Shown: one piece after another, positions 37,900 to 64,000 of the stretch
How positions within the stretch are numbered: the stretch's first letter is position 1
How the letters are laid out: each line of letters opens with the position of its first letter
Origin: Chitinophaga vietnamensis
GTDB lineage: Bacteria; Bacteroidota; Bacteroidia; Chitinophagales; Chitinophagaceae
Direction of reading: 5' to 3'
Assembly (NCBI RefSeq): GCF_902167635.1
Contig: NZ_CABHMS010000009.1
Span: 248,001 to 312,000, forward strand
DNA: 64,000 nucleotides
Translations under genes and position numbers: made by a program
The notes under the pieces: model-generated
What the model saw: the letters and a program-made list of their open reading frames with translations, nothing else
Database searches by the model: none
Told to the model about the DNA's origin: nothing

Positions 37900-40305
37900 T
37901 TACTTCTTTAATAACGCTATTTCGAGCACTTGGTTCATTTGTTTTACATAATGAAACTTCAGTCCTTTGATATAGTCGGGATTAATTTCTTTGATATCTT
38001 TCTCATTCTGCCAGCAGAGGATGATCTCGCGGATACCGGCACGTTTGGCAGCCAGTATTTTTTCTTTGATGCCTCCTACCGGCAACACCTGCCCTCTCAG
38101 CGTAATTTCGCCGGTCATCGCGAGATACGATTTTACTTTACGGCCGGTGAAAATAGAGGTCAGCGCCGTGAGCATCGTGATACCCGCGCTGGGACCGTCT
38201 TTCGGAACGGCGCCTTCCGGGATGTGCACATGCACGCTCTTCTGCGCAAACAGTTTCGGATCGATCTTATACTGGGCAGCATTGGCCTGCAGGTAAGTGA
38301 GGGCCGTTATTGCAGACTCTTTCATCACCTGGCCGAGGTTACCGGTCAGCTTCAGTTCGCCCTTGCCTTCACTCAGGCTGCTTTCGATAAAGAGGATATC
38401 GCCGCCAACATAGGTCCAGGCGAGGCCTACAGCCACTCCCGGAGGATTACCCACTTTATATATTTCGTTGGAGTAACGCGGCTTGCCTAATATTTTTTCA
38501 ATATTTGCATCGGTGATATTCTCCGGCAGCGGACGTTCCAGCGCTACCTCCTTCGCCAGGTTACGCATGATGGAGGCAAAGAGCCGGTCCAGCTCCCGCA
38601 CGCCGCTCTCGCGGGTATAGTCCGCGATCACATGCTCTATAACGCTGTTGCTTATACGAAATTTTGTATCCTTTAACCCGTGCGCTTCCTTCTGCTTCGG
38701 CAAGAGGTGGCGTTTGGCGATCTCCACTTTCTCTTCAATAGAATAGCCGCTCAGGTCAATGATCTCCAATCGGTCGCGCAGCGCCGGGTGGATCGCATTG
38801 ATGTTGTTGGCTGTCGCGATGAACAATACTTTGCTCAGGTCGTATTCCAGTTCGAGGTAATTATCATAGAAAGAGCTGTTCTGCTCCGGGTCCAGCACTT
38901 CCAGCATGGCGGAACTGGGATCGCCGCGCAGGTCATTGCCGATCTTGTCGATCTCATCGAGGATCATTACCGGGTTAGATGATTTGATCTTCCGGATAGA
39001 TTGAATGACCCTGCCCGGCATCGCGCCGATATAGGTTTTCCGATGACCGCGTATCTCGCTTTCATCATGCAGGCCGCCAAGGCTCAGGCGCACGTACTTG
39101 CGGCCCACTGCATTGGCGATCGAGCGTCCCAGCGAGGTTTTGCCGATACCCGGAGGGCCTACGAAACAGAGGATCGGAGATTTCATGTCTCCTTTCAGTT
39201 TCAGTACAGCCAGGTATTCCAATATCCTTTCTTTGATCTTTTCCATGCCGTAATGGTCATGGTCCAATATTTTTTTCGCCTTCTTCAGGTCGTAGCTATC
39301 GGTGGTATAATCGCCCCAGGGCAGGTCCAGCAAGAGATCCAGGTGATTGTACACTACGCTGTAGTCCGGCGTGGTGGGATGCATGCGCTCCAGCTTTTCA
39401 ATGCCTTTTGCGAAGGCTTCCGCCGCGGCCGGCGACCATTTCTTCTCTTCTGCCTTGCGCTTCATCTCCCTGATCTCACGATCATTGGCATCTCCGCCCA
39501 ACTCTTCCTTGATGGATTTCATTTGCTGTTGCAGGAAGTAGTCGCGCTGTTGTTTGTCAAGATCCGCCTTGGTTTTGTTGGTGATCTTGTTTTTCAGCTC
39601 GGCCAGCTGCAATTCTGTTTGCAGCAATTTCATCAGCAGCTCCGCGCGGGTGCGCAGGTTGTTGATCTCCAGCAATTGCTGTTTATCTTTTAATTCGGAG
39701 TTGAGGTTGGAAGACACAAAATGCACAAGGAACGACGGGTTCTCGATATTCTTCAGGATGATGCCAGCTTCTGAAGGCAGGTTGGGCGACAGGTTGATGA
39801 TCTGCGCAGCCAGGTCTTTGATAGAAGAAACATAGGCGTCAAATTCCGTATCCTCGGCTACCGTCTCTTCCGGCAGTACCGTGATCCTGGCTTTGAAATA
39901 CGGATCTTCTGTAACGATCTCGTTTATTTTGAATCGTTTGCGTCCCTGGATGATGATGGTGGTGCCGCCATCCGGCATTTTGATGAGTTTCACGATACGG
40001 GCCACAGTACCTACTTCTGTGAGATCGGCCACATTGGGATCTTCTACAGTACTGTCTTTTTGCGCTACTACACCGATCATTTTGTCAGTCTTGTACGCAT
40101 CGCTCACTGCTTTTATGGACTTGTCCCTGCCAACGGTGATGGGCAATACCACCCCGGGGAATAATACTGTATTTCGTAATGGTAACAATGCCAGTTCATC
40201 GGGGATTTTGCTGTCATCCTCTTGCGCATCCCCATCTTCATTCAAAGGGATAATAGGCATGAACTCCATTTCATCTTCCGAATTTCCTAAATAAAATCTG
40301 TTCAT
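37900..40305 (-). CDS. lon: ATP-dependent protease Lon (left copy, complete)
   Basis: Cytoplasmic AAA+ serine protease that removes damaged and short-lived regulatory proteins. The 801 residues include an N-terminal substrate domain ([20 protein letters not shown]), a coiled coil, and the ATPase with Walker [10 protein letters not shown] (383-391) and Walker [12 protein letters not shown]. The protease domain has catalytic Ser706 in [12 protein letters not shown] and Lys749 in [11 protein letters not shown]. All key residues are intact. The part from 38995 to the start is repeated in mirror image at 62690-64000. No TAnnTTTG box was seen upstream. Confidence 0.98.
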
Positions 40306-40431
40306 CTGAGTTATTTAAAGCCTCCGAGGACATTCTGTCATAAAATACGGCTACAGTCCTCATTATTTAGAGCAGGGGTACATTGTCAAGTTTAATGCCA
40401 AGTGCCGGCATGGCAGCAGGAGTGATGACCG

Positions 40432-40467
40432 GAAAAAGCGATGTCCCGGCAAATTGCCGGGACATCG
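40432..40467 (-). terminator. Terminator after the small outer-membrane protein gene (left copy)
   Basis: Perfect stem CGATGTCCCGGCAA / TTGCCGGGACATCG around a single A (40439-40467), followed on the minus strand by CTTTTTCC. It is 31 bp after the gene's stop codon. The same hairpin occurs at 62528-62563 in the mirror copy. Confidence 0.88.
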
Positions 40468-40497
40468 GAAAATAACTTAATGGCATTCCGTAAATAA

Positions 40498-41115
40498 TTA
40501 CAAGGTAACGCCAACGCCAATCTGGATCGCCTGGTTTTTCCAGTTGCTGGTGTTGGTTACGCTGTTCAGGTCTTTCACGTCATTAAAGCCAATGATGTAA
40601 CGCGCACTGATGTTGATGATAGGCAATTGCAACCATAAGCCAGCCACACCGGAAATATCGCCGCCTTTGAAGGCCTGGTTAACAGCGCCGGAAGAACCAA
40701 ACACTTTCTTGTCGCTCACCAACGCACTGAATTGTGGACCTACCTGCAATTTAATGCGGGGACTGCCCAGGTCGATGTTGGCCAGCAAAGGAATGCTCAG
40801 GTAATTCATGTTGATCGTTTTTCCGTTGTCGCTCAGATTACCAGTATTGTAGATCTGGCTAAAATCGTCTGTGGTCTTGGTTTTGGTAGAAGAGAAAACA
40901 AATTCACCCTGTACTCCGAAACCTTTTACCAGGTGCAATTGCGCGAAAGCGCCAATGTGATAGCCCAGTTTAAAACCATCCTGGTAGCCGGTACCATCTA
41001 ATTTACCAAGGTTAGCTCCACCTTTGACACCAAAACGGAGCAATCTGTCTTGCGCTTTAACGGTTGAAACGGCAGTTGCGGTTAGCAGCACGACTGCGAG
41101 AAACAGTTTTTTCAT
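40498..41115 (-). CDS. PorT-type outer-membrane beta-barrel protein (left copy)
   Basis: A 205-residue protein with signal peptide MKKLFLAVVLLTATAVSTVK ending A-Q and an 8-stranded barrel pattern of the OMP_b-brl_2/PorT-like family. Strand pairs include FGVKGGANLGKLDG, LGYHIGAFAQLHLVKGFGVQ, GEFVFSSTKTKTTDD, YLSIPLLANIDLGSPRIKLQ and ISARYIIGFNDVKD. The final IQIGVGVTL lacks the usual aromatic end. The function is unknown. It stands alone between terminator 40432 and the next outer-membrane gene, and is duplicated at 61880-62497. Confidence 0.88.
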   Translation of the reverse strand: MKKLFLAVVLLTATAVSTVKAQDRLLRFGVKGGANLGKLDGTGYQDGFKLGYHIGAFAQLHLVKGFGVQGEFVFSSTKTKTTDDFSQIYNTGNLSDNGKTINMNYLSIPLLANIDLGSPRIKLQVGPQFSALVSDKKVFGSSGAVNQAFKGGDISGVAGLWLQLPIINISARYIIGFNDVKDLNSVTNTSNWKNQAIQIGVGVTL

Positions 41116-41218
41116 AAAATTGCTTTAAATAATAATGGTTAAAATATAGACGTACATCACAACATTTACCCCTACGCGACTAATTGTGATTGGCTAACTA
41201 CAAATTTTATGCTCAATA

Positions 41219-42133
41219 TTAAAAACTATACGCCACACGCGCAGTGAAATAGCTCATGATGTGCTGGTCTTCTCCGGTGAAAGGCTTGAAAACAGTGAAG
41301 GCGGGGGCGATATTCAATTTGCCGACGAGATAGGAAAAATTAAGTGTGAGATCAAGTGCGCGCGGCTCAAAACCGGAATGATCTTCCAATGCAATTTCTT
41401 TTCCGCGATGTACAACGGTCTTCTTTAACTTGGGAGAACGGGTAATATATTGAAAGGCTTTGAGGTTGCTGAAATAGTTGGCGGTGCCGCAGGTAAAGCC
41501 GATGGAGGGCGCCAGCAATATGGCATCTGTGCCGCTCAGGATGCCATTGAACAGGAAGGGATGCCGCACGGCGAAGATGACGTTGAAGTCGTTACCACGC
41601 AACGAACTGTGGGTATGCTCTCCGCTCTCATCATGCTTGCCCCAGCCGTAATCCACACTGATACCGGGTTCCAGCCACCACTTGCGGTAATAGAAATAAG
41701 CGAATATCTCATTGGTGATGGGCGTTTTAGGCACATCGCTGGAATCTGCGAAGAAATATTTAGTGTAAGAAATACCGGTGAGTACGTTATCACTTTTCGT
41801 ATAGTCGTAACCGGCAGTGAGGTCCCATTCAAACCAGGGATGTTCATTGGCATTTACCAGGTAATAGCTGCTAACGCCGCCATAGAAGCCGCTTTTATGA
41901 TAGTAGGTCAATGAAGGCGCCAGGAAGGTCTTCATTACTATCGGCCATTCATAGTTGGTGGTTTTGCTGCCGTAGGCGGGATTATTGCCATATCCCACTG
42001 CTGCAACCAGTTCACTCTTATCTTTTTTGCGTAACAACGAATCGAGCTGTTTTTCCAGCTCGGCTAAAGTTTGGCCCGCCGCGATACGGCTGCATAACAG
42101 CAACAGGAATATAAAGTAAACGCGCATGAACAT
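41219..42133 (-). CDS. Outer-membrane hypothetical protein (left copy)
   Basis: A roughly 304-residue exported protein. The start at 42133 (M-F-M-R-V-Y-F-I-F-L-L-L-L) follows an AAGGA-like ribosome-binding site; a more distant ATG at 42181 gives a less typical N-terminus. After the signal, ending A-A-G-Q, comes a short coiled-coil (TLAELEKQLDSLLRKKDKSE) and then strands of a beta-barrel (YGGVSSYYLVNANEHPWFEW, DLTAGYDYTKSDNVLTGISY, KYFFADSS, FAYFYYRKWWLEPGISVDYG). It ends in the aromatic insertion signal VAYSF. No family assignment was made. Mirror copy at 60862-61776. Confidence 0.8.
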   Translation of the reverse strand: MFMRVYFIFLLLLCSRIAAGQTLAELEKQLDSLLRKKDKSELVAAVGYGNNPAYGSKTTNYEWPIVMKTFLAPSLTYYHKSGFYGGVSSYYLVNANEHPWFEWDLTAGYDYTKSDNVLTGISYTKYFFADSSDVPKTPITNEIFAYFYYRKWWLEPGISVDYGWGKHDESGEHTHSSLRGNDFNVIFAVRHPFLFNGILSGTDAILLAPSIGFTCGTANYFSNLKAFQYITRSPKLKKTVVHRGKEIALEDHSGFEPRALDLTLNFSYLVGKLNIAPAFTVFKPFTGEDQHIMSYFTARVAYSF

Positions 42134-42258
42134 GCTTTTTCCTTGTACTACGTTCACCGCAAGATAGGTGTAATTCCGCATTTAAATGCAGTTGACAGTC
42201 GAAGAGGGCATAACTGTAGTTGTATGATGGTTATTTGTCGATAAACTCCATTTTTCGG

Positions 42259-43524
42259 TTAAACGAGATCGATGACGGTAATCTCCGGCAATACGCCTAC
42301 CCTGCCGGGGTAACCGAGGAAACCGAAGCCCCTGTTCACATACAGGTGTTGATCGCCTTCCTTGTAAAGGCCGGCCCACTCTTTATAGATATACTGCGCC
42401 GGGCTCCATTTAAGACCGGGAATCTCTATACCGAACTGCATGCCATGGGTATGGCCGGCCAGCGTAAGGGCGATGTCCGGGAAATCCGTGCGTACCTGGG
42501 CATCCCAGTGGGTAGGGTCGTGCGACATCAGTATTTTAAAGGGGATATGTTCAATGCCTTCATAGGCGCGCTTGAGGTCACCATGACGGGGAAAACGGCT
42601 CATGGCGCTCCAGTTTTCCACGCCCAGCAGGGCGATCTGCTCTCCACCCTTCTCCAGCACTGCGTTTTCATTCATCATCAATTTCCAGCCCAGTTCGCCA
42701 TGTACCTGTTTCAAACGTTCCAGGTTCTGGTGCTGAAGGGCGCTATAGCCGTTGGGCGTCTTGTCGGGCCAGGGGTAATAGTCGCCATAGTCATGATTGC
42801 CCAAGGTGGAATACACGCCCATAGGGGCTTTCACCTGACGGAACACATCCATCCAGGGCTCCATTTCGCTGGCGCGATCGTTGACCAGGTCGCCAGTGAA
42901 GAGGATGAGATCGGCCCGCTGGTCGTTGATCAGCTGCACGCCTTTGATCACTGCCTCGCGGTTGGCGAAGCTGCCGGAGTGGATATCGGATATCTGCACG
43001 ATGCGCATGCCTTTAAAGGAGGCGGGCAGGTTTTTGAGCGCCAGCTTTATTTTGTGCACACGATAATTATACTTGTTGGAAAATCCGTACACGAGCGTAG
43101 CAAAGAGGCCGCCGCCCGCGATGAGCCCCAGCCTGTTGAGGAACTGGGAGCGGGAAAGGCCATTCACGGCGGTTTCCGGGCTAATGGTTTTGGCCGCGCT
43201 GAAGCGACGGACTACCCAGGTGAGGGCGCGGCGTACATCATCCAGCAAGAGGAACACGGCGGTGAGCAGCTTGGCCACCACCAGCCCGATGATCACGGCC
43301 AGTACATAGGAACGCACGGCGGTGGGCCAGTTATGCCATTTGATGTAAGGCAGCAATGCTACGGTAATCAGGCAGGCCAGCGAAACAAACCAATATATGC
43401 TGTAAGTGACGGTACGTACCCTGGGGCTGGACATGTACACGATGGCCCGTACGGCCTGGAACACGTAAATATCCAGCAATAAAAGAAAGATCAGTAAAAA
43501 AACGGAATTAAACCCCGATCGCAT
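42259..43524 (-). CDS. Membrane-anchored metallophosphoesterase, calcineurin-like (left copy)
   Basis: A 421-residue protein: about four N-terminal membrane helices (SVFLLIFLLLLDIYVF, YSIYWFVSLACLITVALLPY, AVIIGLVVAKLLTAVFLLLD, LIAGGGLFATLVYGFS), then a phosphoesterase domain. The metal-binding motifs are complete: IVQISDIHSGS (D-x-H), LILFTGDLVND (GD), STLGNHDYGDY (GNHD), ILMSHDPTHWD and LTLAGHTHGMQFG (GHxH). It resembles YkuE/YaeI-type phosphodiesterases that act on lipid or nucleotide substrates at the inner membrane; the substrate is unknown. Mirror copy at 59471-60736. Confidence 0.92.
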   Translation of the reverse strand: MRSGFNSVFLLIFLLLLDIYVFQAVRAIVYMSSPRVRTVTYSIYWFVSLACLITVALLPYIKWHNWPTAVRSYVLAVIIGLVVAKLLTAVFLLLDDVRRALTWVVRRFSAAKTISPETAVNGLSRSQFLNRLGLIAGGGLFATLVYGFSNKYNYRVHKIKLALKNLPASFKGMRIVQISDIHSGSFANREAVIKGVQLINDQRADLILFTGDLVNDRASEMEPWMDVFRQVKAPMGVYSTLGNHDYGDYYPWPDKTPNGYSALQHQNLERLKQVHGELGWKLMMNENAVLEKGGEQIALLGVENWSAMSRFPRHGDLKRAYEGIEHIPFKILMSHDPTHWDAQVRTDFPDIALTLAGHTHGMQFGIEIPGLKWSPAQYIYKEWAGLYKEGDQHLYVNRGFGFLGYPGRVGVLPEITVIDLV

Positions 43525-43878
43525 GATGAAAATATTATATAAATATATGATAGGACAGCAAGTTAATGCAGTTTTGCTGGTCCAAAAAGTTAAAACCTTG
43601 CTGGCAGGATACGCCCTGTTTCAAGCCAGTATAAAGCCAGTATAGAGCATGTAGACGAATAACAAGCGGGGAGATTGTATGTTCTTTTAAAATTTTTCCC
43701 GGGCAGGGCGGACAGTTTGTGAATAAATAAATATACTGCCACGCCGGACTTTTGGGTAATCGTTGTATTTTTGTCCGATTGGCGAAATAAGGTAAATGGT
43801 AATTTGTAAATGGTAAATCGTAAATTACGGGGTACCATTGGCTGATTACATTTTTACTATTCAAACCGGTTCAAGCAT
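43525..43878. other. Divergent intergenic region (left copy)
   Basis: About 350 bp between the phosphoesterase and UPF0173 genes. It contains a short tandem repeat AGCCAGTATA (around 43625-43645), a plus-strand TATTTTTG (43766-43773) that could be a -7 box for UPF0173, and direct repeats of GTAAATGGTAA (43791-43818) followed by GTAAATTACGG. No convincing gene. The mirror copy is 59117-59470. Confidence 0.5.
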
Positions 43879-44559
43879 ATGAAATACACCTGTTACGGAC
43901 ATTCCTGCTTTGCGATTGAAGTGAAAGGCAAGAGGATATTATTTGATCCTTTTATCAGACATAATGAGCTGGCGAAGAAAGTAGACATTGATGCCATAAC
44001 GGCGGATTACATTTTTGTTTCTCATGGTCATGAGGATCATACGGCCGACCTGATCGAGCTGGCAAAGCGTACAGGCGCCACCGTGGTATCGAATTTCGAG
44101 ATTGTGACCTGGGTGAGCAAGCAGGGAGTGGAAAAGGTACACCCGATGAATACCGGCGGCAAGTGGAAATTTGATTTCGGTACGGTAAAATGCGTGGTGG
44201 CACAGCATTCCAGCAGTTTGCCCGACGGCGCTTACGGCGGCAACCCCATGGGTTTTGTATTCATCACCGACGATGCCAACTTTTATTATAGCGGCGATAC
44301 CGCGCTCACTTTCGATATGGAACTGGTACCGTCTATCGCCACGCTCGATTTTGCCGTGCTGCCGATCGGCGATAATTTCACCATGGGCGTGGAAGATGCC
44401 ATCGCCGCAGCTGAGCTGATCGAATGTGATAAAATAGTAGGCGTACACTACGATACCTTTGGTTACGTTAAGATAGACAAGAAAGCGGCACAACAACAAT
44501 TTGACGAAGCTGGCCTGGAACTGTTGCTGCCTGAAATAGGAAGCACCATAGAGGTTTGA
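43879..44559 (+). CDS. UPF0173-family metallo-beta-lactamase-fold hydrolase (left copy)
   Basis: A 226-residue metal-dependent hydrolase. The N-terminal MKYTCYGHSCFAIEVKGKRI, the LFDPFI segment, and the H-x-H-x-D-H metal site S-H-G-H-E-D-H (His49-His54) are diagnostic for UPF0173/YtkL. Later metal ligands are in CVVAQHSSSLPDG, FYYSGDTALTFDM and GVHYDTFGYVK. Its physiological substrate is not established. It is 47 bp upstream of parA and may be co-transcribed with it. Mirror copy at 58436-59116. Confidence 0.95.
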   Translation: MKYTCYGHSCFAIEVKGKRILFDPFIRHNELAKKVDIDAITADYIFVSHGHEDHTADLIELAKRTGATVVSNFEIVTWVSKQGVEKVHPMNTGGKWKFDFGTVKCVVAQHSSSLPDGAYGGNPMGFVFITDDANFYYSGDTALTFDMELVPSIATLDFAVLPIGDNFTMGVEDAIAAAELIECDKIVGVHYDTFGYVKIDKKAAQQQFDEAGLELLLPEIGSTIEV

Positions 44560-44606
44560 TTTATCCTTTATCCTATAAATAAACCTTAGAATTTTTAATT
44601 TACACA

Positions 44607-45428
44607 ATGGCTAGAATAATCGCAATCGCTAACCAGAAAGGTGGCGTAGGAAAAACTACAAGTGCAATAAACCTGGCAAGCAGCCTGGCTGTGCTGGAAT
44701 TTAAGACACTGCTGGTTGATGCCGATCCTCAGGCCAACAGCACTACAGGACTGGGCTTCGACCTGCGCAATGTACAGCAGAGCCTTTACGATTGTATGGT
44801 GAATGACGTGCAGGCAAAAGATGTAGTGCTGGAATCCGATACCCCCAACCTGAAAGTACTCCCCTCACATATAGACCTGGTAGGCGCCGAACTGGAACTC
44901 ATCAATCATCCCAACAGGGAAAGAGTGATGAAACAGGTGATCGACAGCGTGAAAGATGATTACGATTTCGTGATCGTAGACTGCTCTCCTTCTCTCGGCC
45001 TGATCACCGTAAATGCCCTGGTAGCCTCCAATTCCGTGATCATCCCCGTACAGTGCGAATTTTTTGCACTGGAAGGTTTGGGCAAACTGCTCAATACCAT
45101 CAAGATCGTACAAAGCCGCCTGAATACCGACCTGGAAATTGAAGGTATCCTGATGACCATGTACGACGGGCGTTTGCGCCTGAGCAACCAGGTAGTGGAT
45201 GAAGTAAAACAACATTTCGAGGAAAGCGTATTCAATACCATCATACACCGTAATACCAAACTGGGTGAGGCGCCCAGCTTTGGCAAATCCGTGATTATGT
45301 ACGACGCTGCCAGCACCGGGGCCATCAATTACCTCAACCTGGCCAAAGAGATCCTGCAGAAACATAATTACACACAAATAAAATCCAAAGACAAAATCTT
45401 AGCTATTAACGATGACCAATCCAAGTAA
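44607..45428 (+). CDS. parA: Chromosome-partitioning ATPase ParA/Soj (left copy)
   Basis: A 273-residue ParA-type ATPase that drives origin segregation with ParB. The deviant Walker A K-G-G-V-G-K-T-T is at residues 11-18 in IIAIANQKGGVGKTTSAINL. The A' motif LLVDADPQANSTTGLGF and Walker B DFVIVDCSPSLGLITVNAL follow. There is no N-terminal DNA-binding extension, so it is the chromosomal Soj type. It overlaps parB by 17 bp. The parA-parB-DUF5683-dapB order is typical for Bacteroidota chromosomes. Mirror copy at 57567-58388. Confidence 0.97.
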   Translation: MARIIAIANQKGGVGKTTSAINLASSLAVLEFKTLLVDADPQANSTTGLGFDLRNVQQSLYDCMVNDVQAKDVVLESDTPNLKVLPSHIDLVGAELELINHPNRERVMKQVIDSVKDDYDFVIVDCSPSLGLITVNALVASNSVIIPVQCEFFALEGLGKLLNTIKIVQSRLNTDLEIEGILMTMYDGRLRLSNQVVDEVKQHFEESVFNTIIHRNTKLGEAPSFGKSVIMYDAASTGAINYLNLAKEILQKHNYTQIKSKDKILAINDDQSK

Positions 45429-46332
45429 GAAAGAGGCGTTGGGTAAAGGCATCCGCTCGCTGCTCCAAAACATTGACACCGATCTGAAACAAACTGCCGG
45501 CGCGCTGGGCGACAAAGCCGTGGCGGCCGCTACCGGCATTGAACGTGTTCCGTTAGACCAGATCGTGACTAACCCGAAGCAGCCGCGCCGTGACTTTGAT
45601 GAGCTGTCATTACAGGAGCTGAGTCAGTCGATAAAACTGCACGATGTCATCCAGCCCATCACCATTGCCAAAATAAGCAACAAAAAGTACCAGCTGATTG
45701 CCGGCGAGCGCAGACTGAGAGCCAGCAAGATGGCGGGCCTGAAAGATATTCCTGCATATATCCGCCAGGTGAATGACCAGGAACTGCTGGAACTGGCCCT
45801 GCTGGAGAACCTGCAGCGTGAAAACCTCAACGCGATCGAGGTGGGCCTGAGCTATAAAAGGCTGATGGAAGAATGTTCCCTCACACAGGAACAGGTGGCC
45901 GAACGTATGGGCAAAGAAAGAAGCACAGTTACCAACTATATCCGCCTGCTCAAACTGCCGCCGGATATCCAGGTGGCGGTGCGCAACACGCAGCTGAGCA
46001 TGGGCCATGCCCGCGTGCTCACCGGTGTGGAGAATGTGGAGAACCAGTTATTCATCTATAACGAAATATTGAGGAGCGGCCTTTCTGTACGACAAACAGA
46101 GGAGCTGGCCCGCAAAGTGAACCAGGCTGCTGAAAAAAATCCGCAGCTGAAAGCCGCCAAAGCCAAGCTGCCACCGGCTTTCCAGAAGATCCAGGACAAC
46201 CTGGCCTCCCACTTTGCCACAAAAGTTAAACTGGACAGAGGAAGAAACGGAAAAGGAAGTATTTTGATCGAATTCTATTCAGATGAAGAACTGGATAGTA
46301 TCCTGGAAAAAATAGATATATACGGTGGCTAA
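45412..46332 (+). CDS. parB: Chromosome-partitioning protein ParB/Spo0J (left copy)
   Basis: A 306-residue parS-binding CTPase switch. The N-terminal ParA-activating lysine/arginine tail is KKEALGKGIRSLL. The CTP-binding ParB domain has IVTNPKQPRRDFDELSLQEL, QLIAGERRLRASKMAGL (G-E-R-R) and LLENLQRENLNAIEVGL (E-N-x-Q-R). A helix-turn-helix follows (LTQEQVAERMGKERSTVTNY) and then a C-terminal dimerisation region. All motifs are intact. It overlaps parA (17 bp) and the DUF5683 gene (8 bp). No parS site was found by eye in the window. Mirror copy at 56663-57583. Confidence 0.97.
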   Translation: MTNPSKKEALGKGIRSLLQNIDTDLKQTAGALGDKAVAAATGIERVPLDQIVTNPKQPRRDFDELSLQELSQSIKLHDVIQPITIAKISNKKYQLIAGERRLRASKMAGLKDIPAYIRQVNDQELLELALLENLQRENLNAIEVGLSYKRLMEECSLTQEQVAERMGKERSTVTNYIRLLKLPPDIQVAVRNTQLSMGHARVLTGVENVENQLFIYNEILRSGLSVRQTEELARKVNQAAEKNPQLKAAKAKLPPAFQKIQDNLASHFATKVKLDRGRNGKGSILIEFYSDEELDSILEKIDIYGG

Positions 46333-47050: not shown

Positions 47051-47092
47051 GCCGCATCTCCCTTTATCATAAAATCATAACAGATCAGGGAC

Positions 47093-47809: not shown

Positions 47810-47852
47810 CAGCTGCTAAACAACAAGCCGCTGTTTACCATTCACTTTTACT

Positions 47853-54594: not shown

Positions 54595-54632
54595 AAAAAG
54601 CCCTTGAAGCGCTCCAGGCGCTTCAAGGGCTT
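54595..54632 (-). terminator. Terminator after Rrf2, mirror copy
   Basis: Same stem as at 48363-48400, facing the other way and ending the minus-strand Rrf2 gene. Confidence 0.8.
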
Positions 54633-54655
54633 TAAAGTTGATACCGGGATTTGCC

Positions 54656-55075: not shown

Positions 55076-55185
55076 ACTGACTGATTTGCATCCCTCCCGG
55101 ATGTACTAAGATTGCACGAACATTTTTAACTTAACAAATATAAGTAAAAGTGAATGGTAAACAGCGGCTTGTTGTTTAGCAGCTG

Positions 55186-55902
55186 TTAGAGGTTCAGTAC
55201 ATCCTTCATGGAAAACACTCCTGTTTTGCCTTTCAGCCATTCGGCGGCGATCACGGCGCCGGCGGCAAAACCCTCGCGGGAATGGGCCGTATGCGTGATG
55301 GTAATGTCGTCGATGGCGGAGGTATACGTGATGGAATGCGTGCCTGGCGCGGGATCGATACGTTTGGAAATGATCGACAGCACGCCCGCTTCATGGCTTT
55401 CCTCATTCACCCAGGTTTTCTTGCGGCTAACGCTGGCCATCAGTTGTTCGGCCAGGGTGAGCGCAGTGCCGCTGGGCGCGTCTTTCTTCTGGGTGTGGTG
55501 GATCTCTTCCATCCACACGTCGTATTGCGGCTGACTGGCCATCAGAGCGGCCAGTCGCTTGTTCACTTCAAAAAAGATATTTACGCCGATGCTGAAATTG
55601 GTGGCGTGTAAAAAAGCCTGCTTTTTTTCTTTGCAAAGTTTTTCCACTTCCGGCAATTTATCCAGCCAGCCGGTGGTGCCGCAAACCACGGGCACATTGG
55701 CCTCGAAGCATTTGAGCACGTTATGGTAGGCCGTTTCCGGCGTAGTGAATTCGATGGCTACATCTGCCTGCCCCAGGTGCTCCTTGTCGAGCAGCTGCGG
55801 GGTATTATGCTCCACCCTTAAAATTACTTCGTGACCCTTTGCTGTAGCGATGGCATCGATAGCTTTACCCATTTTGCCATAGCCGATAAGCGCAATTTTC
55901 AT
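55186..55902 (-). CDS. dapB: 4-hydroxy-tetrahydrodipicolinate reductase, mirror copy
   Basis: Identical to the reductase gene at 47093-47809; catalytic E-x-H-H...K-x-D-A-P-S-G-T-A unchanged. Confidence 0.8.
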   Translation of the reverse strand: MKIALIGYGKMGKAIDAIATAKGHEVILRVEHNTPQLLDKEHLGQADVAIEFTTPETAYHNVLKCFEANVPVVCGTTGWLDKLPEVEKLCKEKKQAFLHATNFSIGVNIFFEVNKRLAALMASQPQYDVWMEEIHHTQKKDAPSGTALTLAEQLMASVSRKKTWVNEESHEAGVLSIISKRIDPAPGTHSITYTSAIDDITITHTAHSREGFAAGAVIAAEWLKGKTGVFSMKDVLNL

Positions 55903-55944
55903 GTCCCTGATCTGTTATGATTTTATGATAAAGGGAGATGCGGC

Positions 55945-56670
55945 TCAACGGCCCGCATAGTAGAAAGCCTTTCTGCTGGCCTTTTTGCCTCCCAATGAAA
56001 TATTAACACCGATCCCCGGCGTGCGGTTATTGATGATCGTTGGCGTCACCTGCAAGGTGAGATCATTGGAGATGTCAAAGGTGCGCAGGTGCGCAAACAC
56101 AGTGGCATCAATGATATTCAGGCCGTACGATAATACGAAGAACAGCACGGAATAGTCAACCCACTCACGGTAGGTATCTCTCAACACTTTCAGGGATTGT
56201 GCATTTGGATATTGTACAATGAACTTGTCTTTAACATCCGGGTTGCCGGCCATGCGGATGCGGTAGGCATCGCGGTATTGTTTGTACTGGTCCATATTGA
56301 AGATGAAGAAACCGGTACAGGTGCCCATGGCGGCGTATATCAGCGGAATTTTCCAGTACTCCCTGTTGTAGGCCTGTCCGAGCCCGGGCAGTATAGCCGA
56401 GTACAGAGCCGCTTTGCGCGGGCTGTGCGGCAGGGGCATATCTGGTCTGAACACGATGGAATCGCGCCTGGGAGCGATGTTTTTAGCGGTATCTGTGGCA
56501 ATATGCTGCAATGGTTTCACGGTGTCGGCTACACGGGGTGCGGCCGCTACAGTGGTATCTGCCATACCTTGCGGTGTGGGCGCGGCTCCGGCAGGAGCGG
56601 CCAGGAATATTGCCAGGATCAGTAAAGCGCTACGTACTAAATTGATGATGTTTCCAGCCAGCTTAGCCAC
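55945..56670 (-). CDS. DUF5683 membrane protein, mirror copy
   Basis: Identical to 46325-47050; same GTG start overlapping the end of the parB copy by 8 bp. Confidence 0.8.
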   Translation of the reverse strand: MAKLAGNIINLVRSALLILAIFLAAPAGAAPTPQGMADTTVAAAPRVADTVKPLQHIATDTAKNIAPRRDSIVFRPDMPLPHSPRKAALYSAILPGLGQAYNREYWKIPLIYAAMGTCTGFFIFNMDQYKQYRDAYRIRMAGNPDVKDKFIVQYPNAQSLKVLRDTYREWVDYSVLFFVLSYGLNIIDATVFAHLRTFDISNDLTLQVTPTIINNRTPGIGVNISLGGKKASRKAFYYAGR

Positions 56671-57583
56671 CGTATATATCTATTTTTTCCAGGATACTAT
56701 CCAGTTCTTCATCTGAATAGAATTCGATCAAAATACTTCCTTTTCCGTTTCTTCCTCTGTCCAGTTTAACTTTTGTGGCAAAGTGGGAGGCCAGGTTGTC
56801 CTGGATCTTCTGGAAAGCCGGTGGCAGCTTGGCTTTGGCGGCTTTCAGCTGCGGATTTTTTTCAGCAGCCTGGTTCACTTTGCGGGCCAGCTCCTCTGTT
56901 TGTCGTACAGAAAGGCCGCTCCTCAATATTTCGTTATAGATGAATAACTGGTTCTCCACATTCTCCACACCGGTGAGCACGCGGGCATGGCCCATGCTCA
57001 GCTGCGTGTTGCGCACCGCCACCTGGATATCCGGCGGCAGTTTGAGCAGGCGGATATAGTTGGTAACTGTGCTTCTTTCTTTGCCCATACGTTCGGCCAC
57101 CTGTTCCTGTGTGAGGGAACATTCTTCCATCAGCCTTTTATAGCTCAGGCCCACCTCGATCGCGTTGAGGTTTTCACGCTGCAGGTTCTCCAGCAGGGCC
57201 AGTTCCAGCAGTTCCTGGTCATTCACCTGGCGGATATATGCAGGAATATCTTTCAGGCCCGCCATCTTGCTGGCTCTCAGTCTGCGCTCGCCGGCAATCA
57301 GCTGGTACTTTTTGTTGCTTATTTTGGCAATGGTGATGGGCTGGATGACATCGTGCAGTTTTATCGACTGACTCAGCTCCTGTAATGACAGCTCATCAAA
57401 GTCACGGCGCGGCTGCTTCGGGTTAGTCACGATCTGGTCTAACGGAACACGTTCAATGCCGGTAGCGGCCGCCACGGCTTTGTCGCCCAGCGCGCCGGCA
57501 GTTTGTTTCAGATCGGTGTCAATGTTTTGGAGCAGCGAGCGGATGCCTTTACCCAACGCCTCTTTCTTACTTGGATTGGTCAT
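56663..57583 (-). CDS. parB: Chromosome-partitioning protein ParB, mirror copy
   Basis: Identical to 45412-46332. A second chromosomal parAB would normally diverge or disturb segregation, which weighs against a true duplication. Confidence 0.8.
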   Translation of the reverse strand: MTNPSKKEALGKGIRSLLQNIDTDLKQTAGALGDKAVAAATGIERVPLDQIVTNPKQPRRDFDELSLQELSQSIKLHDVIQPITIAKISNKKYQLIAGERRLRASKMAGLKDIPAYIRQVNDQELLELALLENLQRENLNAIEVGLSYKRLMEECSLTQEQVAERMGKERSTVTNYIRLLKLPPDIQVAVRNTQLSMGHARVLTGVENVENQLFIYNEILRSGLSVRQTEELARKVNQAAEKNPQLKAAKAKLPPAFQKIQDNLASHFATKVKLDRGRNGKGSILIEFYSDEELDSILEKIDIYGG

Positions 57584-58388
57584 CGTTAATAGCTAAGATT
57601 TTGTCTTTGGATTTTATTTGTGTGTAATTATGTTTCTGCAGGATCTCTTTGGCCAGGTTGAGGTAATTGATGGCCCCGGTGCTGGCAGCGTCGTACATAA
57701 TCACGGATTTGCCAAAGCTGGGCGCCTCACCCAGTTTGGTATTACGGTGTATGATGGTATTGAATACGCTTTCCTCGAAATGTTGTTTTACTTCATCCAC
57801 TACCTGGTTGCTCAGGCGCAAACGCCCGTCGTACATGGTCATCAGGATACCTTCAATTTCCAGGTCGGTATTCAGGCGGCTTTGTACGATCTTGATGGTA
57901 TTGAGCAGTTTGCCCAAACCTTCCAGTGCAAAAAATTCGCACTGTACGGGGATGATCACGGAATTGGAGGCTACCAGGGCATTTACGGTGATCAGGCCGA
58001 GAGAAGGAGAGCAGTCTACGATCACGAAATCGTAATCATCTTTCACGCTGTCGATCACCTGTTTCATCACTCTTTCCCTGTTGGGATGATTGATGAGTTC
58101 CAGTTCGGCGCCTACCAGGTCTATATGTGAGGGGAGTACTTTCAGGTTGGGGGTATCGGATTCCAGCACTACATCTTTTGCCTGCACGTCATTCACCATA
58201 CAATCGTAAAGGCTCTGCTGTACATTGCGCAGGTCGAAGCCCAGTCCTGTAGTGCTGTTGGCCTGAGGATCGGCATCAACCAGCAGTGTCTTAAATTCCA
58301 GCACAGCCAGGCTGCTTGCCAGGTTTATTGCACTTGTAGTTTTTCCTACGCCACCTTTCTGGTTAGCGATTGCGATTATTCTAGCCAT
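57567..58388 (-). CDS. parA: Chromosome-partitioning ATPase ParA, mirror copy
   Basis: Identical to 44607-45428, with the same 17-bp overlap with parB. Confidence 0.8.
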   Translation of the reverse strand: MARIIAIANQKGGVGKTTSAINLASSLAVLEFKTLLVDADPQANSTTGLGFDLRNVQQSLYDCMVNDVQAKDVVLESDTPNLKVLPSHIDLVGAELELINHPNRERVMKQVIDSVKDDYDFVIVDCSPSLGLITVNALVASNSVIIPVQCEFFALEGLGKLLNTIKIVQSRLNTDLEIEGILMTMYDGRLRLSNQVVDEVKQHFEESVFNTIIHRNTKLGEAPSFGKSVIMYDAASTGAINYLNLAKEILQKHNYTQIKSKDKILAINDDQSK

Positions 58389-58435
58389 TGTGTAAATTAA
58401 AAATTCTAAGGTTTATTTATAGGATAAAGGATAAA

Positions 58436-59116
58436 TCAAACCTCTATGGTGCTTCCTATTTCAGGCAGCAACAGTTCCAGGCCAGCTTCGTCAAATTGTT
58501 GTTGTGCCGCTTTCTTGTCTATCTTAACGTAACCAAAGGTATCGTAGTGTACGCCTACTATTTTATCACATTCGATCAGCTCAGCTGCGGCGATGGCATC
58601 TTCCACGCCCATGGTGAAATTATCGCCGATCGGCAGCACGGCAAAATCGAGCGTGGCGATAGACGGTACCAGTTCCATATCGAAAGTGAGCGCGGTATCG
58701 CCGCTATAATAAAAGTTGGCATCGTCGGTGATGAATACAAAACCCATGGGGTTGCCGCCGTAAGCGCCGTCGGGCAAACTGCTGGAATGCTGTGCCACCA
58801 CGCATTTTACCGTACCGAAATCAAATTTCCACTTGCCGCCGGTATTCATCGGGTGTACCTTTTCCACTCCCTGCTTGCTCACCCAGGTCACAATCTCGAA
58901 ATTCGATACCACGGTGGCGCCTGTACGCTTTGCCAGCTCGATCAGGTCGGCCGTATGATCCTCATGACCATGAGAAACAAAAATGTAATCCGCCGTTATG
59001 GCATCAATGTCTACTTTCTTCGCCAGCTCATTATGTCTGATAAAAGGATCAAATAATATCCTCTTGCCTTTCACTTCAATCGCAAAGCAGGAATGTCCGT
59101 AACAGGTGTATTTCAT
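58436..59116 (-). CDS. UPF0173-family metal-dependent hydrolase, mirror copy
   Basis: Identical to 43879-44559, including the H-x-H-x-D-H metal site. Confidence 0.8.
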   Translation of the reverse strand: MKYTCYGHSCFAIEVKGKRILFDPFIRHNELAKKVDIDAITADYIFVSHGHEDHTADLIELAKRTGATVVSNFEIVTWVSKQGVEKVHPMNTGGKWKFDFGTVKCVVAQHSSSLPDGAYGGNPMGFVFITDDANFYYSGDTALTFDMELVPSIATLDFAVLPIGDNFTMGVEDAIAAAELIECDKIVGVHYDTFGYVKIDKKAAQQQFDEAGLELLLPEIGSTIEV

Positions 59117-59470
59117 ATGCTTGAACCGGTTTGAATAGTAAAAATGTAATCAGCCAATGGTACCCCGTAATTTACGATTTACCATTTACAAATTACCATT
59201 TACCTTATTTCGCCAATCGGACAAAAATACAACGATTACCCAAAAGTCCGGCGTGGCAGTATATTTATTTATTCACAAACTGTCCGCCCTGCCCGGGAAA
59301 AATTTTAAAAGAACATACAATCTCCCCGCTTGTTATTCGTCTACATGCTCTATACTGGCTTTATACTGGCTTGAAACAGGGCGTATCCTGCCAGCAAGGT
59401 TTTAACTTTTTGGACCAGCAAAACTGCATTAACTTGCTGTCCTATCATATATTTATATAATATTTTCATC
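59117..59470. other. Divergent intergenic region, mirror copy
   Basis: Reverse complement of 43525-43878, carrying the same short repeats; nothing further seen. Confidence 0.5.
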
Positions 59471-60736
59471 ATGCGATCGGGGTTTAATTCCGTTTTTTTA
59501 CTGATCTTTCTTTTATTGCTGGATATTTACGTGTTCCAGGCCGTACGGGCCATCGTGTACATGTCCAGCCCCAGGGTACGTACCGTCACTTACAGCATAT
59601 ATTGGTTTGTTTCGCTGGCCTGCCTGATTACCGTAGCATTGCTGCCTTACATCAAATGGCATAACTGGCCCACCGCCGTGCGTTCCTATGTACTGGCCGT
59701 GATCATCGGGCTGGTGGTGGCCAAGCTGCTCACCGCCGTGTTCCTCTTGCTGGATGATGTACGCCGCGCCCTCACCTGGGTAGTCCGTCGCTTCAGCGCG
59801 GCCAAAACCATTAGCCCGGAAACCGCCGTGAATGGCCTTTCCCGCTCCCAGTTCCTCAACAGGCTGGGGCTCATCGCGGGCGGCGGCCTCTTTGCTACGC
59901 TCGTGTACGGATTTTCCAACAAGTATAATTATCGTGTGCACAAAATAAAGCTGGCGCTCAAAAACCTGCCCGCCTCCTTTAAAGGCATGCGCATCGTGCA
60001 GATATCCGATATCCACTCCGGCAGCTTCGCCAACCGCGAGGCAGTGATCAAAGGCGTGCAGCTGATCAACGACCAGCGGGCCGATCTCATCCTCTTCACT
60101 GGCGACCTGGTCAACGATCGCGCCAGCGAAATGGAGCCCTGGATGGATGTGTTCCGTCAGGTGAAAGCCCCTATGGGCGTGTATTCCACCTTGGGCAATC
60201 ATGACTATGGCGACTATTACCCCTGGCCCGACAAGACGCCCAACGGCTATAGCGCCCTTCAGCACCAGAACCTGGAACGTTTGAAACAGGTACATGGCGA
60301 ACTGGGCTGGAAATTGATGATGAATGAAAACGCAGTGCTGGAGAAGGGTGGAGAGCAGATCGCCCTGCTGGGCGTGGAAAACTGGAGCGCCATGAGCCGT
60401 TTTCCCCGTCATGGTGACCTCAAGCGCGCCTATGAAGGCATTGAACATATCCCCTTTAAAATACTGATGTCGCACGACCCTACCCACTGGGATGCCCAGG
60501 TACGCACGGATTTCCCGGACATCGCCCTTACGCTGGCCGGCCATACCCATGGCATGCAGTTCGGTATAGAGATTCCCGGTCTTAAATGGAGCCCGGCGCA
60601 GTATATCTATAAAGAGTGGGCCGGCCTTTACAAGGAAGGCGATCAACACCTGTATGTGAACAGGGGCTTCGGTTTCCTCGGTTACCCCGGCAGGGTAGGC
60701 GTATTGCCGGAGATTACCGTCATCGATCTCGTTTAA
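59471..60736 (+). CDS. Membrane-anchored metallophosphoesterase, mirror copy
   Basis: Identical to 42259-43524; D-x-H, GNHD and GHTH motifs and the four N-terminal membrane helices unchanged. Confidence 0.8.
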   Translation: MRSGFNSVFLLIFLLLLDIYVFQAVRAIVYMSSPRVRTVTYSIYWFVSLACLITVALLPYIKWHNWPTAVRSYVLAVIIGLVVAKLLTAVFLLLDDVRRALTWVVRRFSAAKTISPETAVNGLSRSQFLNRLGLIAGGGLFATLVYGFSNKYNYRVHKIKLALKNLPASFKGMRIVQISDIHSGSFANREAVIKGVQLINDQRADLILFTGDLVNDRASEMEPWMDVFRQVKAPMGVYSTLGNHDYGDYYPWPDKTPNGYSALQHQNLERLKQVHGELGWKLMMNENAVLEKGGEQIALLGVENWSAMSRFPRHGDLKRAYEGIEHIPFKILMSHDPTHWDAQVRTDFPDIALTLAGHTHGMQFGIEIPGLKWSPAQYIYKEWAGLYKEGDQHLYVNRGFGFLGYPGRVGVLPEITVIDLV

Positions 60737-60861
60737 CCGAAAAATGGAGTTTATCGACAAATAACCATCATACAACTACAGTTATGCCCTCTTCGACTGT
60801 CAACTGCATTTAAATGCGGAATTACACCTATCTTGCGGTGAACGTAGTACAAGGAAAAAGC

Positions 60862-61776
60862 ATGTTCATGCGCGTTTACTTTATATTCCTGTTGCTGTTA
60901 TGCAGCCGTATCGCGGCGGGCCAAACTTTAGCCGAGCTGGAAAAACAGCTCGATTCGTTGTTACGCAAAAAAGATAAGAGTGAACTGGTTGCAGCAGTGG
61001 GATATGGCAATAATCCCGCCTACGGCAGCAAAACCACCAACTATGAATGGCCGATAGTAATGAAGACCTTCCTGGCGCCTTCATTGACCTACTATCATAA
61101 AAGCGGCTTCTATGGCGGCGTTAGCAGCTATTACCTGGTAAATGCCAATGAACATCCCTGGTTTGAATGGGACCTCACTGCCGGTTACGACTATACGAAA
61201 AGTGATAACGTACTCACCGGTATTTCTTACACTAAATATTTCTTCGCAGATTCCAGCGATGTGCCTAAAACGCCCATCACCAATGAGATATTCGCTTATT
61301 TCTATTACCGCAAGTGGTGGCTGGAACCCGGTATCAGTGTGGATTACGGCTGGGGCAAGCATGATGAGAGCGGAGAGCATACCCACAGTTCGTTGCGTGG
61401 TAACGACTTCAACGTCATCTTCGCCGTGCGGCATCCCTTCCTGTTCAATGGCATCCTGAGCGGCACAGATGCCATATTGCTGGCGCCCTCCATCGGCTTT
61501 ACCTGCGGCACCGCCAACTATTTCAGCAACCTCAAAGCCTTTCAATATATTACCCGTTCTCCCAAGTTAAAGAAGACCGTTGTACATCGCGGAAAAGAAA
61601 TTGCATTGGAAGATCATTCCGGTTTTGAGCCGCGCGCACTTGATCTCACACTTAATTTTTCCTATCTCGTCGGCAAATTGAATATCGCCCCCGCCTTCAC
61701 TGTTTTCAAGCCTTTCACCGGAGAAGACCAGCACATCATGAGCTATTTCACTGCGCGTGTGGCGTATAGTTTTTAA
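60862..61776 (+). CDS. Outer-membrane hypothetical protein, mirror copy
   Basis: Identical to 41219-42133, with the same AAGGA-like ribosome-binding site before the ATG at 60862. Confidence 0.75.
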   Translation: MFMRVYFIFLLLLCSRIAAGQTLAELEKQLDSLLRKKDKSELVAAVGYGNNPAYGSKTTNYEWPIVMKTFLAPSLTYYHKSGFYGGVSSYYLVNANEHPWFEWDLTAGYDYTKSDNVLTGISYTKYFFADSSDVPKTPITNEIFAYFYYRKWWLEPGISVDYGWGKHDESGEHTHSSLRGNDFNVIFAVRHPFLFNGILSGTDAILLAPSIGFTCGTANYFSNLKAFQYITRSPKLKKTVVHRGKEIALEDHSGFEPRALDLTLNFSYLVGKLNIAPAFTVFKPFTGEDQHIMSYFTARVAYSF

Positions 61777-61879
61777 TATTGAGCATAAAATTTGTAGTTA
61801 GCCAATCACAATTAGTCGCGTAGGGGTAAATGTTGTGATGTACGTCTATATTTTAACCATTATTATTTAAAGCAATTTT

Positions 61880-62497
61880 ATGAAAAAACTGTTTCTCGCA
61901 GTCGTGCTGCTAACCGCAACTGCCGTTTCAACCGTTAAAGCGCAAGACAGATTGCTCCGTTTTGGTGTCAAAGGTGGAGCTAACCTTGGTAAATTAGATG
62001 GTACCGGCTACCAGGATGGTTTTAAACTGGGCTATCACATTGGCGCTTTCGCGCAATTGCACCTGGTAAAAGGTTTCGGAGTACAGGGTGAATTTGTTTT
62101 CTCTTCTACCAAAACCAAGACCACAGACGATTTTAGCCAGATCTACAATACTGGTAATCTGAGCGACAACGGAAAAACGATCAACATGAATTACCTGAGC
62201 ATTCCTTTGCTGGCCAACATCGACCTGGGCAGTCCCCGCATTAAATTGCAGGTAGGTCCACAATTCAGTGCGTTGGTGAGCGACAAGAAAGTGTTTGGTT
62301 CTTCCGGCGCTGTTAACCAGGCCTTCAAAGGCGGCGATATTTCCGGTGTGGCTGGCTTATGGTTGCAATTGCCTATCATCAACATCAGTGCGCGTTACAT
62401 CATTGGCTTTAATGACGTGAAAGACCTGAACAGCGTAACCAACACCAGCAACTGGAAAAACCAGGCGATCCAGATTGGCGTTGGCGTTACCTTGTAA
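61880..62497 (+). CDS. PorT-type outer-membrane beta-barrel protein, mirror copy
   Basis: Identical to 40498-41115, with signal peptide and barrel strands unchanged. Confidence 0.8.
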   Translation: MKKLFLAVVLLTATAVSTVKAQDRLLRFGVKGGANLGKLDGTGYQDGFKLGYHIGAFAQLHLVKGFGVQGEFVFSSTKTKTTDDFSQIYNTGNLSDNGKTINMNYLSIPLLANIDLGSPRIKLQVGPQFSALVSDKKVFGSSGAVNQAFKGGDISGVAGLWLQLPIINISARYIIGFNDVKDLNSVTNTSNWKNQAIQIGVGVTL

Positions 62498-62527
62498 TTA
62501 TTTACGGAATGCCATTAAGTTATTTTC

Positions 62528-62563
62528 CGATGTCCCGGCAATTTGCCGGGACATCGCTTTTTC
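62528..62563 (+). terminator. Terminator after the outer-membrane protein gene, mirror copy
   Basis: Same CGATGTCCCGGCAA stem as at 40432-40467, followed by CTTTTTCC on the plus strand. Confidence 0.8.
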
Positions 62564-62689
62564 CGGTCATCACTCCTGCTGCCATGCCGGCACTTGGCAT
62601 TAAACTTGACAATGTACCCCTGCTCTAAATAATGAGGACTGTAGCCGTATTTTATGACAGAATGTCCTCGGAGGCTTTAAATAACTCAG

Positions 62690-64000
62690 ATGAACAGATT
62701 TTATTTAGGAAATTCGGAAGATGAAATGGAGTTCATGCCTATTATCCCTTTGAATGAAGATGGGGATGCGCAAGAGGATGACAGCAAAATCCCCGATGAA
62801 CTGGCATTGTTACCATTACGAAATACAGTATTATTCCCCGGGGTGGTATTGCCCATCACCGTTGGCAGGGACAAGTCCATAAAAGCAGTGAGCGATGCGT
62901 ACAAGACTGACAAAATGATCGGTGTAGTAGCGCAAAAAGACAGTACTGTAGAAGATCCCAATGTGGCCGATCTCACAGAAGTAGGTACTGTGGCCCGTAT
63001 CGTGAAACTCATCAAAATGCCGGATGGCGGCACCACCATCATCATCCAGGGACGCAAACGATTCAAAATAAACGAGATCGTTACAGAAGATCCGTATTTC
63101 AAAGCCAGGATCACGGTACTGCCGGAAGAGACGGTAGCCGAGGATACGGAATTTGACGCCTATGTTTCTTCTATCAAAGACCTGGCTGCGCAGATCATCA
63201 ACCTGTCGCCCAACCTGCCTTCAGAAGCTGGCATCATCCTGAAGAATATCGAGAACCCGTCGTTCCTTGTGCATTTTGTGTCTTCCAACCTCAACTCCGA
63301 ATTAAAAGATAAACAGCAATTGCTGGAGATCAACAACCTGCGCACCCGCGCGGAGCTGCTGATGAAATTGCTGCAAACAGAATTGCAGCTGGCCGAGCTG
63401 AAAAACAAGATCACCAACAAAACCAAGGCGGATCTTGACAAACAACAGCGCGACTACTTCCTGCAACAGCAAATGAAATCCATCAAGGAAGAGTTGGGCG
63501 GAGATGCCAATGATCGTGAGATCAGGGAGATGAAGCGCAAGGCAGAAGAGAAGAAATGGTCGCCGGCCGCGGCGGAAGCCTTCGCAAAAGGCATTGAAAA
63601 GCTGGAGCGCATGCATCCCACCACGCCGGACTACAGCGTAGTGTACAATCACCTGGATCTCTTGCTGGACCTGCCCTGGGGCGATTATACCACCGATAGC
63701 TACGACCTGAAGAAGGCGAAAAAAATATTGGACCATGACCATTACGGCATGGAAAAGATCAAAGAAAGGATATTGGAATACCTGGCTGTACTGAAACTGA
63801 AAGGAGACATGAAATCTCCGATCCTCTGTTTCGTAGGCCCTCCGGGTATCGGCAAAACCTCGCTGGGACGCTCGATCGCCAATGCAGTGGGCCGCAAGTA
63901 CGTGCGCCTGAGCCTTGGCGGCCTGCATGATGAAAGCGAGATACGCGGTCATCGGAAAACCTATATCGGCGCGATGCCGGGCAGGGTCATTCAATCTATC
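62690..64000 (+). CDS. lon: ATP-dependent protease Lon, mirror copy (first 437 codons; cut by the window edge)
   Basis: Identical to the first 437 codons of the lon gene at 37900-40305. It includes the N-terminal domain, the coiled coil and Walker A (residues 383-391), and stops at the window end inside the ATPase domain, in RVIQSI. Whether the rest follows, and where the arm ends, cannot be seen here. Confidence 0.8.
   Translation, partial: MNRFYLGNSEDEMEFMPIIPLNEDGDAQEDDSKIPDELALLPLRNTVLFPGVVLPITVGRDKSIKAVSDAYKTDKMIGVVAQKDSTVEDPNVADLTEVGTVARIVKLIKMPDGGTTIIIQGRKRFKINEIVTEDPYFKARITVLPEETVAEDTEFDAYVSSIKDLAAQIINLSPNLPSEAGIILKNIENPSFLVHFVSSNLNSELKDKQQLLEINNLRTRAELLMKLLQTELQLAELKNKITNKTKADLDKQQRDYFLQQQMKSIKEELGGDANDREIREMKRKAEEKKWSPAAAEAFAKGIEKLERMHPTTPDYSVVYNHLDLLLDLPWGDYTTDSYDLKKAKKILDHDHYGMEKIKERILEYLAVLKLKGDMKSPILCFVGPPGIGKTSLGRSIANAVGRKYVRLSLGGLHDESEIRGHRKTYIGAMPGRVIQSI

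Follow-up and report, generated by a model that had tools for sequence, protein, structure and literature searches.

A mirrored arm around the cys genes

We analysed a 64-kb window of the Chitinophaga vietnamensis genome, positions 248001-312000 of contig C9 (NZ_CABHMS010000009.1, 330,271 bp) in assembly GCF_902167635.1 (hereafter G000; 6,308,408 bp in 15 contigs), whose right-hand part is occupied by a large palindrome. Going towards the palindrome axis, the window carries genes for the lon protease (37900..40305, minus strand; Pfam Lon_C and LON_substr_bdg) and, all on the plus strand, for a ParA-type ATPase (44607..45428; AAA_31), ParB (45412..46332; ParB_N, HTH_ParB and ParB_C) and DapB (47093..47809; DapB_C and DapB_N). 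Two further plus-strand genes follow, which we take to be cysD (49266..50174; PAPS_reduct) and cysN (50175..51464; GTP_EFTU and GTP-eEF1A_C). The latter, for sulfate adenylyltransferase subunit 1, is the last gene before the axis.

From position 38995 to its last base, the window is its own exact reverse complement, with 0 mismatches in 12,503 pairs and no N. A first-pass annotation of this DNA, made from the letters alone, had described a perfect, spacer-free palindrome over this interval. The palindrome is indeed perfect, and it is larger than described. The axis lies at 51497|51498, with 0 nucleotides separating the arms, and the mirror extends past the window without a mismatch to C9:330138 (window-equivalent 82138), the partner of window position 20857. 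Each arm thus measures 30,641 bp, again with 0 mismatches, and a chance origin of such a match is impossible. The left arm (20857..51497, plus strand), with lon, parAB, dapB, the cys genes and others, is taken here as the true single copy, in view of its 0 mismatches to the right arm and of the conserved gene order after cysN described below. The right arm, present in the window as 51498..64000 (minus strand) and continuing beyond it, is its exact reverse complement and would be the fold-back copy. The annotation had also proposed locating the place outside the window where the right arm ceases to match: this falls 133 bp short of the contig end.

In an ungapped comparison, the first mismatching pair is 20856/82139 and the final 133 bp of C9 diverge, but gapped alignment places these 133 bp at window positions 20737-20856. 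Relative to the C9 end, 13 bases spread over 9 gaps are missing from the left copy, which also shows 1 substitution; the length differences are all one-sided. The C9 end version forms a clean second hairpin with a 34-bp stem; no inverted repeat of at least 20 bp was found in the left copy. The left copy gives the impression of poor reading, not of evolutionary change, and we annotate 20737..20856 as an error-like copy of this second hairpin, situated where the right arm ends. Another hairpin, at L018:13740-13918 and judged by eye to have many small deletions, likewise resembles the product of noisy reads bridging a hairpin.

The axis sequence and its partners at other contig ends

The 36 bp that lead from the cysN stop codon TAG up to the axis recur once elsewhere in the genome, at C1:1097662-1097697, which leaves 13 bp before contig C1 ends. 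There the stop codon TAG at which the copy begins is that of an epimerase gene, and the axis region and the C1 end are identical over 49 bp (36 bp before the axis and 13 bp after it). The simplest reading is that two convergent genes meet at one natural, perfect 72-bp palindrome (51462..51533, bounded by the TAG stops of cysN and of the epimerase gene), of which C9 and C1 would each carry one side; its size is deduced by appending the C1 end to the cysN side. The sequence gives a G+C-rich hairpin with a stem of at least 20 pairs and a T-run on both strands, folds at -57.5 kcal/mol (z -15.4) and has the form of a two-way intrinsic terminator, a prediction made from its letters and its position between cysN and the epimerase gene. 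Scanned with Rfam at gathering scores, window positions 1-51560 returned a transfer-messenger RNA (tmRNA) gene only (6303-6677, minus strand), and the axis matched no RNA family.

Is the C1 end the true continuation of the chromosome after cysN? A search for relatives of cysN gave a list of the best 80 loci, 28 of which come from Chitinophaga and one near relative (the 'Chitinophaga clade'). Among these listed matches, all 28 clade loci present cysD and cysN, then an epimerase gene on the opposite strand, then a gene of the DAHP synthetase I family, presumably kdsA. An aconitase gene lies further on in 27 of them (the exception is L057), and this order is that of the C1 end. The epimerase gene is the immediate neighbour of cysN in 18 loci and stands past a gap of 1.6-3.4 kb in the other 10, and it was found, at E<=1e-20, in none of the remaining 52 of the 80 listed loci. 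In 29 short loci of the genus, partly from the same species, it is present in 25 and missing within the 1.5-kb flank in 4. Full-length cysN occurs as one copy in each of 59 other genomes of the genus and as two in this assembly only; in relatives such as G057, it sits inside single long contigs. Given the half-palindrome on C1 and the conserved gene order, we regard the C1 end as the probable continuation after cysN, and it is the gene order that decides the case. The cysN-epimerase junction itself bears differing terminator-like hairpins across species, from small ones to a 52-bp perfect stem (L035:11242-11373).

A comparison of pieces of this genome totalling 723,111 letters, some of them overlapping, revealed a second mirror on contig C7, the arms of which were read in pieces. 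C7:26017-30100 equals C7:94717-98800 reversed, with 0 mismatches in 4,084 positions and coordinates summing to 124817, and C7:1-2300 equals C7:122517-124816 reversed, the match reaching base 1 of the contig. The mirror spans C7:1-124816, with its axis at 62408.5 within a shared 78-bp palindrome. At its start, contig C10 resembles the C1 end: a perfect palindrome of 28 bp gives way to unique sequence. From this form, C10 was predicted to be the lost partner of the C7 axis, and it then matched exactly: its first 53 bp match both C7:62370-62422 and C7:62395-62447, on opposite strands, centred exactly on 62408.5. In G057, a single contig and the one relative covered in this comparison, a GMC oxidoreductase gene (86 percent to the gene ending at the C7 axis) is directly followed by a GH35 gene (86 percent to the first gene of C10). 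Pfam backs the names of these two genes, as it does those of the epimerase and the aconitase. Units of 51 bp, each with a small hairpin, are repeated in tandem at C7:1-250 and near C7:124817, and the C7 mirror ends inside this array.

A probable assembly fold-back and its alternatives

Hairpins are also common at the contig ends of this assembly. Of its 30 contig ends, 3 are masked. A complete hairpin starts at most 30 bp from the end in 8 of the 27 visible ones, compared with 20 of about 3,000 cuts placed at random inside contigs. By inspection, halves or wholes of hairpins stand at 19 of the 27, most of them common to another end, while 3 ends appear by eye to be ribosomal RNA-like and 5 are neither. 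The C9 mirror ends 133 bp before a contig end and the C7 mirror ends at one. Contigs of a de Bruijn graph overlap by an exact, fixed number of bases, and the starts of C5 and C14 have exactly 127 bases in common.

On these grounds, namely the exact axis, the half-palindrome on C1, the gene order, the second case on C7 and the hairpins at contig ends, we consider it almost certain that the palindrome is a fold-back misassembly, mirrored at a short natural palindrome, and not a feature of the chromosome. The arms are identical and lack a spacer, the continuation lies elsewhere in the assembly and is conserved in relatives, and the same picture recurs at C7. The genes inside the palindrome are then probably present once, not twice. 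The first-pass annotation had favoured an assembly or library fold-back, and the true continuation proposed at the C1 end and the second fold-back on C7 strengthen that choice. What the annotation missed is that the site is not arbitrary, since the centre is a natural, palindromic, terminator-like sequence.

How would such a mirror arise? The real chromosome would run through the left arm, cysN and the short natural palindrome into the reverse of C1, with the epimerase gene, kdsA and aconitase. In a short-read graph with k below 72, the self-complementary 72-bp axis would offer two exits, one leading on into the next gene and one returning on the opposite strand. If reads drop out at strong hairpins, the exit into C1 could be lost; the sole remaining path would then lead back out, and the reverse complement would be copied until the next hairpin, 30.6 kb away. 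Inferred in this account are a short-read graph as the origin of the assembly, the loss of reads and the value of k that produced the mirror. We built a toy graph from the real flanks of the axis, using six k values. With an intact palindrome, the graph branches at k=21, 33 and 55 and presents no problem at k>=77. When the C1 exit is removed and the palindrome is fully read from the cysN side, k=55 yields a single path without branches, which turns back along the reverse strand. Judging from these outcomes, the mechanism could operate, but under certain conditions only. A related effect is described in the available part of a report on hairworm (Nematomorpha) mitochondria, where coverage falls at perfect inverted repeats of up to 284 bp and SPAdes contigs break there (PMC6649704). 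Assemblies thus break at perfect inverted repeats in both cases; however, broken contigs are what that part of the report describes, whereas here, in a bacterium, two contigs are also mirrored, over 30.6 kb and up to 62.4 kb.

Several points weigh against a fold-back. Arms with 0 mismatches are also expected of a real inverted duplication, if very recent, and the C7 arms were compared in pieces rather than throughout. In the toy graph, the mirror appears at k=55 alone of the six values (k=21 and 33 remain branched), and no mirror forms if both sides stop early (at base 49). Moreover, the usual argument from palindrome instability cannot be used, because SbcD was not found in G000 (0 matches at E<=1e-3); the search for SbcC in this genome gave nothing convincing, with one match of 21.5 bits. 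The first-pass annotation had held that cutting by SbcCD would make such a palindrome unstable, an argument that fails in a genome lacking any detected SbcD and any convincing SbcC.

These same absences lend weight to a real inverted duplication. Centred on the natural palindrome, and fixed or present in part of the culture, it could have arisen through hairpin-primed replication without SbcCD; in a variant, two template switches at two hairpins would create a triplication (U, reversed U, U), which would keep the C1 link as well. A palindrome does stand at the axis, both the axis and the arm end lie at hairpins, and a precedent exists: in E. coli cells deficient in both SbcCD and RecA, large inverted duplications formed around an interrupted palindrome of 246 bp, on which they were centred (PMC3315005). 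That case resembles ours in the mirror on a palindrome and the lack of SbcCD. However, it required the loss of RecA too, and it concerns a rearrangement seen in the chromosome, whereas here a different contig end preserves the normal junction and the copies resemble reflections in a graph. A duplication would also have had to occur twice (30.6 kb and up to 62.4 kb), each time free of mismatches where read and reaching or nearing a contig end, although in both cases the normal continuation exists as the end of another contig. Finally, the one-sided deletions in the left copy at the second hairpin are those expected of sequencing noise. We therefore judge a real duplication to be quite unlikely.

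Two other explanations appear far less plausible still. Reading round a covalently closed hairpin telomere yields a perfect spacer-free palindrome, which is the structure observed, and the first-pass annotation had listed an unusual chromosome end among its alternatives. Yet the telomere resolvase family PF16684 has no match in this genome (the control search matched 1 of 14 genomes), cysN is internal to long contigs in relatives with its neighbour conserved, and there are two such axes; we hold a telomere to be extremely improbable, and that alternative finds no support. The very large inverted repeats at the replication terminus of Lactobacillus bulgaricus offer a comparable size, tens of kilobases inverted: in the part of PMC5345009 available, those of L. 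delbrueckii ssp. bulgaricus are given as 38-76 kb in total. However, they have unique centres of 1-8.8 kb, whereas 0 nucleotides separate the arms here, and the conserved gene order continues uninterrupted through the axis, so that a repeat of this type is hardly credible.

If the fold-back is accepted, a reference assembly contains false duplicates amounting to as much as about 93 kb (1.5 percent). More exactly, the two mirrors together amount to up to 93,049 bp, or 1.47 percent of the assembly, and the contamination value of 1.8 reported for it would fit such mirrored duplication. The copy numbers of lon, parAB, dapB, the cys genes and the contents of C7:1-62408 would then be wrong. Two chromosome links, C9-C1 and C7-C10, are absent from the assembly. 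The form of these errors suggests a simple test for draft genomes, which is to look for contigs that mirror themselves at a short perfect palindrome, the other half of which forms the end of a different contig.

Long natural hairpins at gene ends

Natural hairpins are the probable cause of the assembly error, and they are the part worth following. In G000 we counted 21 hairpins with a perfect stem of at least 30 bp and a loop of at most 60 nucleotides in 567 kb (37 per Mb, with stems up to 97 bp), a count taken from pieces rich in contig ends and possibly biased upwards. Two single-contig relatives, G057 and G030, sampled in evenly spaced pieces, each have 16 such hairpins in 400 kb, with other sequences. 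The 28 cys loci of the Chitinophaga clade, a sample of one locus type, contain 4 long stems in 583 kb, and none was found in 929 kb from 49 outgroup loci, chiefly Flavobacteriaceae (49 of the 52 other cysN loci, L060, L062 and L063 being left out). We considered whether perfect arms could be an effect of the assembler, through bubble popping; the similar density and the perfect arms in the single-contig G057 and G030 argue against this.

One of these hairpins lies in the window at 12450..12627. It has a 66-bp perfect stem and a 46-nucleotide loop, and inverted-repeat and family comparisons place it in a dispersed family of near-perfect hairpins of 178-256 bp that occupies 36 distinct places in G000, most of them abutting stop codons. 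Other places include L005:1187-1410, L010, L023, L024 and L185-L212. There are 66 arm matches in G000, 4 of which are two images of one element in the C7 mirror; the 36 copies count this element once, leaving out the L188 image. Among the matches listed, the family is found in 6 of 60 genomes of the genus, this one included. Twenty-three of the 36 copies lie between convergent genes, and 48 of 57 gene-facing ends fall at most 7 bp from a stop codon (median 0).

The proximity to stop codons is also seen for long stems at large, strongly in G000 and less so in two relatives. In G000, 20 of 26 ends of stems of at least 30 bp are within 7 bp of a stop codon, versus 13 of 52 for stems of 12-15 bp (p = 2e-5). 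The corresponding figures for long and short stems are 12 of 24 versus 1 of 9 in G057 (p = 0.056) and 10 of 20 versus 3 of 16 in G030 (p = 0.083). Palindromes downstream of genes, often between convergent ones, are known from REP and related repeats and from E. coli inverted repeats near stop codons, as far as the accessible text of PMC3733652 and PMC6060812 goes. However, the palindromes of REPs are given there as 20-40 bp, whereas the hairpins described here reach 224 bp, with perfect stems of up to 97 bp. REP elements associated with a RAYT transposase are GTAG- or CGTC-tagged palindromes of 20-40 bp; the units here are longer. Our literature searches, which covered few subscription papers, found nothing on point for Chitinophaga inverted repeats or palindromes with convergent genes or terminators (a Bacteroides CRISPR paper aside), and for palindromic repeats and terminators in Bacteroidetes a Bacteroides transcriptome only.

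The two arms of a given copy tend to resemble each other more than they resemble other copies. Over the 36 distinct paired copies, own arms differ by a mean of 2.7 edits per 60 bases, and left arms of different copies by 7.6. When the distance between a copy's own arms is set against that from its left arm to the nearest other copy, the former is smaller in 26 cases, the two are equal in 3 and the former is larger in 7. This likeness fits a repair of arms by template switching, with selection for pairing as an alternative. Template switching is described as making and mending hairpin arms in the available part of PMC8794818; together with PMC8604942, as far as its accessible text goes, it could explain both near-identical arms and private changes common to the two, and it is arm similarity alone that was measured here.

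Can the tolerance of such hairpins be linked to the absence of SbcCD? SbcD was detected above the cut-off in 17 of 60 genomes of the genus. SbcC adjoins it in all 6 positive genomes tested, and 6 SbcD-negative genomes tested, those with long stems, gave only unconvincing SbcC matches of 21-26 bits. In equal samples of 60 kb per genome, perfect stems of at least 30 bp were found in 0 of 10 SbcD-positive and 3 of 10 SbcD-negative genomes (p = 0.21). Adding G000, G057 and G030, which were sampled earlier and deeper as the window's own, close or complete genomes, gives 6 of 13 SbcD-negative versus 0 of 10 positive genomes (p = 0.019); kinship is ignored in both p values. The 4 long stems of the 28 cys loci belong to 3 of the 19 loci from genomes without SbcD above the cut-off, and the 9 loci from genomes with SbcD have none. 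Loss of SbcD is not sufficient for long stems, as 7 of the 13 SbcD-negative genomes show none. The restriction of long stems to genomes without detected SbcD is thus a lead, not a result. A literature search on SbcCD and perfect palindromes in bacterial genomes, covering few subscription papers, found none.

Taken jointly, these observations suggest a tentative reading, to which we give slightly less than even weight. Chitinophaga lineages that lost SbcCD may use very long perfect hairpins as gene ends, in families of about 60-225 bp proper to each species, which abut stop codons and in the clearest cases span the interval from stop to stop. Replication template switching would keep the arms alike within each copy while the copies diverge, and the palindromes would break and mirror assemblies. 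Real duplications centred on palindromes might even exist in a minority of cells. If this reading is true, the tolerance and maintenance of long palindromes in bacteria could be tested by comparing species within one genus.

The window holds a few other features. A hairpin with a 42-bp perfect stem at 6700..6788 belongs to a second family, the families having been sorted by eye. Positions 26522-34816 encode a protein of 2,764 amino acids that has Calx-beta domains as well as a signal for type IX secretion, and a PorP/SprF-like gene (25596-26516) adjoins it.

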